Below, one piece after another: positions 24,253 to 27,135 of a stretch of DNA of 64,000 bases. A program made the translations under genes and the position numbers. The notes below the pieces were generated by a model, which ran no database searches, was not told where the DNA came from, and worked only from the letters and a program-made list of their open reading frames with translations. The stretch lies in contig JAUHXS010000001.1 in NCBI GenBank assembly GCA_030426955.1, forward strand, positions 1-64,000, given 5' to 3'. The DNA is from Bacteroidia bacterium (lineage in GTDB: Bacteria > Bacteroidota > Bacteroidia > Chitinophagales > JAUHXS01). Position 1 is the stretch's first letter. Each line of letters begins with the position of its first letter.

Positions 24253-24500
24253 TTACAGTTGTGTTATGTTTCCAGTGATATTATAGATGATATCGTCATT
24301 TTTATATTTACTTTGTAAGTAGTAAGTATAAGTTGCGCTTTCGCTTGTTTGGTCGATATTGTGCCATTTGAAGTTCGGATCTTGCGTCTGATAAATCAAC
24401 TTCCCGTGTCTATTGTATATCTGCAAATTAAACTGATCTATAAGGTCGTTTGGTATTGAAAAAAAATCATTGTTGCCATCTTGTGAACTTGCAGAAAATG
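24253..24500 (-). pseudogene. Detached T9SS type B sorting domain (3' part of the broken PKD gene)
   Basis: Read on the minus strand this encodes FSASSQDGNNDFFSIPND, LQIYNRHGKLIYQTQDPNFKW and ends NITGNITQL: a complete type B C-terminal domain without a gene body. The frame continues the gene at 24817-27135; removing the 348 nt 24501-24848 joins LYIPNA directly to FSASSQDGNNDFF without frame change. An ORF opening at 24585 inside the insert exists by chance and has no signal peptide. Confidence 0.85.
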
Positions 24501-24848
24501 TCGAGCTAAACGTAGTTCCGCATTGAGAACGAAAATTACAAAAGTTGATAGACAATGCGAAATGTAAATACTTTCCGCTGGACATTGAGCATTGTCAGTT
24601 TGTAGTTCATGGAATGAACGTAACAACTCAACTTATGTAATTTGAAAAGTTCGAGATGTGGAATCAAATTGCGTTTAACGTTTTGTTGGAACACGTTTTG
24701 ACTCGAAGTCCGGCAAAGGCGAGCAAGAGGAGAGTAGCGGAGAAGCAATTTGGTTTAGCTCGACATTGAAACACATTCCCTTAAGACTGAAAGTCCGACG
24801 AAGGAGGACGAAAGGATTAAGGTCGGCTTTGCCGAATGTGTTTCAATG
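24501..24848. mobile_element. 348-bp structured MITE-like insertion in a T9SS gene
   Basis: The segment splits a type B sorting domain. aatg flanks both sides (24497-24500 and 24845-24848), consistent with a 4-bp target duplication; the element proper would be 24501-24844. Inside are nested inverted repeats: 24497-24510 with 24754-24767 (14 bp, perfect), 24534-24548 with 24628-24642 (14 of 15), 24551-24558 with 24589-24596 (8 bp), and a terminal hairpin 24764-24778 with 24834-24848 (15 bp, perfect). Two diverged copies of a 'gact..aagtccg.c.aagg' motif occur (about 24708 and 24785). It has no credible ORF, so it must be non-autonomous. Confidence 0.8.
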
Positions 24849-27135
24849 CATTGGGTATATAGAGGAAAGGTTCCCTGCAATTTTCTATATATACTTTTTT
24901 TGTGATAGTATCTGAATAGCAATGATAGGAGCTATGTACAATTAGCGAAACTGAGTATGTTCCTGAATCTTCATATGAATAAATGTGATTGCTTATGTCG
25001 TCTAAGTTAGAACCATTGTCATATATGGTTATCCCCTCATTGCCATCCCCATATGTCCAACTATACCATATAGTATCTTTATTAAAGGTGCATTCTCCAG
25101 ACTTCTGCGGAATAGTATCCAATATGAAATCGTTTAATGTTGTGTTAGATAGCTTGCAATCCGATTCGTAAGAAAAATTTGCAGTAGTGGAGTCTTTTAT
25201 AAATCTTCTTGGTAATCGTGGTACTAAGTTTTGTAAGGAGTAATTCACATTTCCTACAAGAGCAACTTTTTTGGGGTTAATATTTAATGGCGCTTCATCG
25301 TTAGGATTTTCGATACAGGCCAGATAGCCATTAGGATAACCGCCAGTTGGAAAGTATATTTTGTTATCAGGCCCTAGATACATACTGTAATGGGTTGAGA
25401 GGGAACGATATACTGTATCCATAGAATTATGTAATGATGTGCTATCAGGAGCGTTAGCGTCAAACTGCATGATCCCTATGGCTTGAGATTGCACATAGAG
25501 CTTGCTTCCATCAGGTGAAAACTCACACCCATAGGTATATGCTCCTGGGGATAAGCCAATATTTCGTTGATTGGAAAAAGTGCCTGTTGCAGCATCAAAG
25601 TCAAATAAAACAAAACCTTTGCTTGGTGAGTATCTAGTGAAAGCAAACTTATCTCCGTTTGGAGAGAATCTGGCAATATTGCTAGAAAGGAACTCTAGTA
25701 GACTTAAGTCAATATTTGTAGGCGTTCTGTTGAAAAGCTCAATGGTATCCTCTTTTATTAGGTATAATACAATGTCCCAACCAGATGGGCCTGGAAGAAA
25801 GTTAGTAACAAAATATTCTGGCGGTGCATTGCATTCTTCATTTTTTCGCTGTATACCTGCCATAAGCTCTAAGTTGTTTCCTGGTACATCAATTGGAATA
25901 TTTTGCTTTATAACTGCCCCTAATCCCATATCCTCATTCATATCAACAAGACTATAATGAAATCCAAGGTTAGCGTTGATGCCAGTTAATCCAGATTTTA
26001 GAAAAATATAATATTGCTGATCATTTATTGGGTGAGGTACTATTAGGGCTCCCTGAGAAGCATTTTGATTTCCGTTTAATCCGACTCCATTCATCATGGT
26101 ATCGTGGTTGGCATTCCATACAGTTTCTCCATTGGTGTAAAATAAAAGTTCGCCTGTAGTAGGATCACTTACTGTAGCTGCTGTTTCAATTGTTGTGATT
26201 TGACTATTTGAGAAGGGCTTGATACTATCAGCCTCAAAAATAATTCCAGCCTTATTTCCCGCTATCCAATTGTCGTTACTATTTGTTTTATTATATTCTC
26301 CTGGACAAACATCTATAACCTTTGAAAAATTGCTCATGCACCCTCCGGTATCTATACTGGTTAAGCTTATAAGATAGTTTTTCGGATTTGAATATGTGAT
26401 TTCTGGGTCCTCTATATTGGATGTGGTTTGGTTGCCAAAGTTCCATTGCCATTCTGTTATGCTTGCTTCATTAGTAGTTGTATTCTGAAAATCGATTTCA
26501 TTGCATGGACATCCAGCCTCAGCTATAAAAGATGGCTTTCTCTGTTCTGGTATTAATAGTTCAAAACTTGTGTCTATAACACAGCCACCATAGTCTGTAT
26601 TGCCAATATCAAGCCTTATATTATGCGGATATTGAGATTCTGCAAAATGATGTGTAGGATTAGAATCAAAAAAGGTGCCTGTGTTGTCTCCAAACTGCCA
26701 AGCGGTAAATGTTAATGGTATGTTAGGATTATTGGAAAAGGATAAATTGGTAAAATCTACACTTTTTCCAAACTTATTGGGAGTGCAATAAATGGTATAA
26801 TCTAAGGCAATGGTAAAAGGACTCTCAATAACCTCAACAGTTTCACTTGTACTGTCAATACCACCAAACTGAAGCGCTAGTAGCCATATTGTATAAGTTC
26901 CAGGATCAGGGTATGGATGATATAGCTCGCTCATAAAAGGTTCTAGTGTATCAATACTGCCATCGCCCCACTTCATAATTATCGTATCTGCTGATGATCC
27001 TGATGCGTCTCCATATACACTTGAGTTTGGCGATGCACAGAGTGTGTCAGGGTTAAATAAGGTAAGGTCTGCAAACTGGGCCTTTGTTATGTGCACGTAA
27101 AGCAGAAGTAATAAGTATAAGAGTACTTTTTTCAT
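24817..27135 (-). pseudogene. PKD/propeller secreted protein truncated before its T9SS type B tail
   Basis: The 772-residue product has a signal peptide, PKD domains (KWGDGSIDTLEP, WQFGDNTG, WNFGNQTTSNIEDP), then a propeller-like domain (GELLFYTNGETVWN, ASQGALIVPHP, FSPDGSKLYV) paralogous to the 55612-57066 protein, another PKD-like unit (YGDGNEG) and the start of the type B tail, LYIPNA. It then runs into the insertion and stops after nine foreign residues. The repaired gene (24253-27135 minus 348 nt) would encode 844 residues. Without the tail, T9SS export and attachment should fail; the body could still be made and exported to the periplasm by Sec. Confidence 0.85.

Follow-up and report, generated by a model that had tools for sequence, protein, structure and literature searches.

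A probable gene-less, integron-like cassette interrupts a T9SS cargo gene in a Bacteroidia bacterium

The window analyzed here (64,000 nucleotides; positions 1 to 64,000 of contig JAUHXS010000001.1, Bacteroidia bacterium assembly GCA_030426955.1) contains a gene for a PKD-repeat type IX secretion system (T9SS) cargo protein that is interrupted by a 348-bp, gene-less segment, termed T1 (24499-24846, minus strand). The 5' part of the gene (24847-27135, minus strand) now has a frame that stops within T1, giving an open reading frame of 772 aa (24817-27135), and the 3' part (24253-24498, minus strand) encodes a detached T9SS type B sorting domain (CHU_C). Without the 348 bp, ...REPFLYIPNA joins FSASSQDGNNDFF... 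in a single 844-aa open frame. The match to PF13585 (CHU_C, the T9SS signal) covers profile positions 3-74 of 86 in the joined protein and 7-74 in the 3' fragment alone, and joining the flanks raises the Pfam score from 42.4 to 45.3 bits, a small gain because the 3' part already holds most of the sorting domain. The match to TIGR04131 (T9SS type B) was weak and under its cut-off. The original prediction of a non-autonomous mobile element whose insertion severed a T9SS sorting domain is supported; its further claim that deletion restores a full type B tail is right as to the frame, but the sorting domain is cut loose at its first motif rather than split mid-domain. Loss of T9SS export of the protein is the likely consequence of the insertion, and precise excision of T1 could bring export back. 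A search for an orthologue with an empty site yielded only distant paralogues, the best of which (37%) is in the same genome.

The genome (23 contigs) contains four full copies of T1 and several fragments. The three full copies outside the window (C19:118051-118398, C19:121077-121424, and C22:13314-13661) are identical to the window copy at 348 of 348 positions, share its two ends, and lie inside gene-cassette arrays on contigs C19 and C22. The element is thus multicopy, and the other copies fix its limits: the length of 348 bp was predicted correctly, and the true limits are 24499-24846 rather than 24501-24848, the breakpoint in the window by itself being ambiguous across a shared CATT (24497-24500 and 24845-24848). 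T1 DNA was sought in 150 genomes of the order and was found in the window's own genome only. The repeated nature of the element, together with the start of contig C22 inside a copy, might suggest that a repeat had been collapsed or misjoined into the window contig. We regard such an assembly artefact as extremely improbable: the flanks are two halves of one gene and rejoin in frame, which rules out a chimeric joint of two loci, and the contig around the window copy is 674 kb long.

In the arrays, T1 stands between the attC of a gene cassette (..GAACG↓, ..GACCG↓, or ..AACCG↓, where ↓ marks the crossover point) and the next cassette (↓TTG or ↓TTA). Its left neighbors are ..ACACGGAACG, ..ATACTAGACCG, and ..ACACGAACCG in the arrays and ..ATACCCAATGCA in the window, and its right neighbors are TTGTGT, TTAGCA, TTGGGC, and, in the window, TTTTCT. 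None of the three array copies is flanked by a direct repeat. We therefore interpret the aatg/CATT on both sides of the window copy, first read as a target duplication, as the crossover sequence (CA↓TT) that the two ends share. This bears on the idea that T1 is a MITE, a non-autonomous transposon with a 4-bp AATG target duplication that was moved by an unseen transposase. The window copy by itself, with aatg on both sides and its inverted repeats, does look like one, but with the duplication present at none of the other copies, ends that coincide with cassette boundaries, and no terminal inverted repeats, we give this explanation very little credence.

The inverted repeats of T1 were predicted to be nested and perfect, with lengths of 14 and 15 bp; both are present, and both measure 15 nt (24497-24511/24753-24767 and 24764-24778/24834-24848). 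As a single-stranded DNA, the segment folds with a free energy of -61.2 kcal/mol (shuffled sequences, -30.7 +/- 3.6; z = -8.6). In the array orientation, which is the minus strand of the window, T1 reads ↓TTGAAACACATTC...GTTTAGCTCGACA↓. Its left end (R', TTGAAACACATTC; 24834-24846) is the exact complement of an internal box (R''; 24766-24778), and its right end (L', GTTTAGCTCGACA; 24499-24511) pairs with the second half of an internal inverted copy of the circle junction (R''+L'', GAATGTGTTTCAA-TGTCGAGCTAAAC; 24753-24778; 26 nt exact; all on the minus strand). The segment from 24499 to 24768 (minus strand) forms an attC-like hairpin of approximately 270 nt with a perfect outer stem and two more stems nested inside. 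As predicted, the two ends (TTGAAAC... and ...GCTCGACA) are unrelated and do not form ordinary terminal inverted repeats; each pairs with the middle of the element. The accompanying suggestion that a hairpin end points to movement as single strands is plausible, as integron cassettes move in this way.

The genes around the other T1 copies are on one strand, and each is followed by a hairpin of the form AAC-AAT-GTATAA...TTATAC-TTGACC-G↓TT. Several of these cassettes (↓TTGTAGTGC, ↓TTACCACAC, ↓TTACCTACA, and ↓TTGCCATTA) begin with 9 nt that are the exact complement of the box preceding their own hairpin; examples of such start/R'' pairs are TTGTAGTGC/GCACTACAA and TTACCACAC/GTGTGGTAA. Complementarity between start and R'' is a hallmark of integron cassettes, in which both are adjacent in the circular form, and T1 follows the same rule with its first 13 nt. 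The array cargo includes two type II restriction-modification systems and one type I system, a SoFic-like Fic protein, and AbiEi. Two further, unrelated gene-less families of the same design were identified: T2 (270 bp; C19), which holds an attC of normal size with the usual asymmetry, and T3 (329 bp; C20 and C6), which starts with TA rather than TT. In a comparison with Rfam, the array loci gave one sub-threshold chance match. On C20 and C6 (G000:C20:1-3801, locus L024, and C6:412-15138), translation of T3 adds a spurious N-terminus ("MFGDSPEHRIKRISIYPQYLLSCPPTTCADKSLRALPAPRC") to downstream cassette ORFs, and ORFs with this T3-derived N-terminus are likely misannotated in such genomes. A gene cassette at C19:107487-108176 (L010/L022) has a hybrid attC in which the T2 hairpin is fused directly to the cassette's own R'', which suggests that cassettes have recombined with each other.

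Several features of these elements sit uneasily with a simple gene-less cassette. The attC of T1 is approximately 270 nt long, compared with mostly 120 to 130 nt for the attCs here, and its outer stem is perfect; gene cassettes have a much less exact internal inverted copy of their circle junction; the usual landmark at position 15 is missing, with an A/G mismatch read at 16; A↓TT replaces G↓TT at the right end; and T3 has its TA start. Moreover, T1 or T2 directly follows the attC of almost every gene cassette in the C19 array, and T3 does likewise on C20. This arrangement could mean that T1, together with T2 and T3, is a small parasite homing on attC crossovers that on one occasion went off target into the T9SS gene. 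IS1111-type elements and group IIC-attC introns are known analogues that target attC sites. We nevertheless consider a homing parasite unlikely: T1, T2, and T3 all obey the complementarity rule and end at the gene-cassette crossover, T2 carries an ordinary attC, the elements have no coding capacity and no Rfam match, and a second recombinase would be unnecessary.

A recombinase that could move cassettes is present beside the arrays. Approximately 95 nt separate the beginning of the C19 array from the start of an intact, divergently oriented gene for a 274-aa tyrosine recombinase (L022:16409-17233, minus strand), in which the catalytic residues R, K, H-R, H, and Y can be read. Its best NCBIfam model is NF040815. 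The IntI model TIGR02249 matches it under cut-off in two pieces that break at 176/244, and its alignment with VchIntIA breaks (181-206 versus 182-251) exactly at the extra segment of IntI. The protein aligns unbroken to XerA and an archaeal XerC-like protein (PDB 5hxy and 4a8e); unlike these simple recombinases, it heads cassette arrays instead of resolving chromosome dimers. The spacing between the KGxKxR and HxxRH motifs is 65 to 66 aa in all 31 measurable relatives, compared with 107 aa for seven measured IntI proteins. The IntI-specific insertion (I2) is thus missing from the C19 recombinase, which we refer to, with its relatives, as patchless. A careful tree placed the IntI proteins in a separate clade with full support and the patchless sequences on one side at 92/90, which is not decisive, and in a quick tree IntI fell within the patchless sequences, but weakly supported; we therefore make no claim about ancestry or loss. 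The genome also has two housekeeping Xer-like genes, separate from this recombinase group and placed outside it. IntI over the cut-off was found in 37 of 99 sampled genomes of the phylum but in only 1 of 24 in the window's class, and none was found in the window's genome. On C20, the T3 array is likewise headed by a patchless recombinase, the second in the genome, with an open frame of 398 aa. The original prediction had looked to a transposase gene with related ends; the natural mover would instead be the tyrosine recombinase heading a cassette array.

To characterize the relatives of this recombinase, we took 80 loci and scanned them for the full cassette signature, counting only exactly abutting cassettes and allowing attC stems under a 9-of-10 rule, as an exact 8-bp stem was too strict. 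On the recombinase strand, downstream of the gene, the scan detected 46 exact abutting cassette links (0.5 in shuffled sequences). Uninterrupted runs comprise nine cassettes in Flavobacterium amnicola and seven or eight in Flavobacterium sp. SM15, and F. difficile has a run of ten that contains a single gap. Long perfect arrays downstream of a patchless recombinase were seen at L080, L085, L086, L077, L062, L092, L048, and L072 (Flavobacterium, Chryseolinea, and other Bacteroidota). The first cassette usually lies 47 to 250 nt beyond the recombinase stop, at a conserved attI-like site (e.g., CGTATATAAACAAG↓TTA); sites of this type (TATAnnnAAG↓TTA) adjoin the recombinase gene in most chained loci. 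Divergent relatives of the C19 recombinase (L042 and L043) have an upstream attI-like site, TATAAACAAG↓TTA. Judged by its sequence, a putative primary site therefore lies next to the recombinase gene. The two attC arms mismatch precisely at nucleotide 15 after AAC (left arm, A; right arm, C) in 60 of 65 attCs from 16 genomes, and the same mismatch occurs in nine of the twelve attCs examined from the window's own genome, two or three rows of which were poorly extracted. The corresponding T/G pair on the opposite strand could serve as a cue for strand choice. Upstream of the recombinase at L047 (Ignavibacteria UBA2330), tandem ↓TTTACNGTG...AGTCCCCGCGAAAA units also pass the cassette scan; these look like repeats of another kind.

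The secondary, attG-like target that T1 entered in the T9SS gene (GTATATATAG...CTATATACCCAATGCA↓TT; 24847-24895, minus strand) consists of a chance hairpin in the coding sequence and an ATAC. The ATAC lies at the crossover distance seen in the right arms of array attCs, which is the case for 2.0% of the (G/A)↓TT sites of the window, and the hairpin stem is 8 bp; among randomly sampled sites, 1.5% have a stem of at least 8 bp. These features were sought post hoc and are suggestive only. A joint scan for hairpin and TATAC spacing gave 0 of 6,307 sites but is uninformative, because it used one fixed register that the target itself fails.

Taken as a whole, these observations make it quite probable that T1 belongs to an integron-like platform as one of its gene-less cassettes and was inserted at an attG-like site, probably by a patchless tyrosine recombinase. 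T1 would most likely have been excised as a circle from an array in the same genome, through recombination between the attC of the preceding cassette and its own attC. The circle would then have entered the T9SS cargo gene by a single crossover at A↓TT in the secondary site, and the protein would thereby have been separated from its sorting domain. A patchless (Xer/IntI-like) recombinase, such as the one at the head of the C19 array, is the likeliest agent and would act on a folded, single-stranded attC. Within the arrays, T1 may be a promoter for the next cassette, by analogy with the gene-less cassettes of Vibrio, or a selfish cassette.

Cassettes without ORFs are known in Vibrio superintegrons and in Treponema (PMC11014356, PMC6557892), and most of the Vibrio ones act as promoters for the next cassette (PMC11014356). 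Like T1, they are short, have no ORF, carry their own attC, and stand between gene cassettes; T1 differs in its phylum, in the repetition of an identical copy between many cassettes, and in the perfect outer stem of its attC. Off-target integron activity has been reported (PMC10127599), and insertion of a cassette at a non-classical chromosomal site (attG) outside the array has been described by Loot et al. 2024, as cited in PMC12901181 and PMC11023631. As far as these citing accounts go, attG insertions resemble that of T1 in the window in location and concern the IntI of classical integrons, whereas the window's genome has no IntI gene. The arrays here share with classical integrons (class 1 and the Vibrio SCI) a recombinase with an adjacent putative primary site and a head-to-tail array, R'/R'' complementarity, hairpin attCs, and a crossover before TT. 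They differ in the absence of the insertion (I2 helix region) from the recombinase, in an attC landmark that consists of an A/C mismatch fixed at nucleotide 15, and, for many relatives, in an array that follows the recombinase gene downstream and shares its strand. Neither gene-less cassettes nor off-array insertion is new in kind, and the original statement that no such element is known stands only in that the integron type appears undescribed: we found no description of patchless recombinases heading Bacteroidota attC arrays in the open-access literature, and subscription papers may contain one.

We lean somewhat toward the broader view that a class of integrons not described to date is widespread in Bacteroidota, that its recombinases lack I2 yet recombine single-stranded attC hairpins in which the nucleotide-15 mismatch is the strand landmark, and that T1 is a gene-less cassette of this class caught integrating off array. 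In the classical view, the I2 helix gave integrases their activity on single-stranded attC, other proteins lack it, and no ancestral sequence is known (PMC7790495). Recombinases without I2 that head perfect cassette arrays make this view directly testable; if the broader view is true, integron-type recombination needs no I2, whether that condition is ancestral or evolved independently. Because IntegronFinder 2 detected a complete integron in Bacteroidetes proper only in Salinibacter ruber (PMC9024848), a large reservoir of cassettes may have been overlooked; those seen here are rich in anti-phage genes, including restriction-modification systems. The insertion in the window would mean that cassettes of the patchless type also strike coding genes.

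Incomplete copies of the gene-less elements occur both in the arrays and elsewhere in the genome. On C19, a T1 copy and a T2 copy (C19:116636-116718 and C19:115563-115645, respectively) are cut to the left 83 nt and look as if the long hairpin had been deleted. Short T2 and T1 remnants lie close together on C5 (C5:567984-568021 and C5:569592-569613; L013), and a T1 remnant with 96% identity is found on C11 (C11:499725-499797; L007). The remnants on C5 and C11 are probably relics of decayed arrays or of older off-array insertions.
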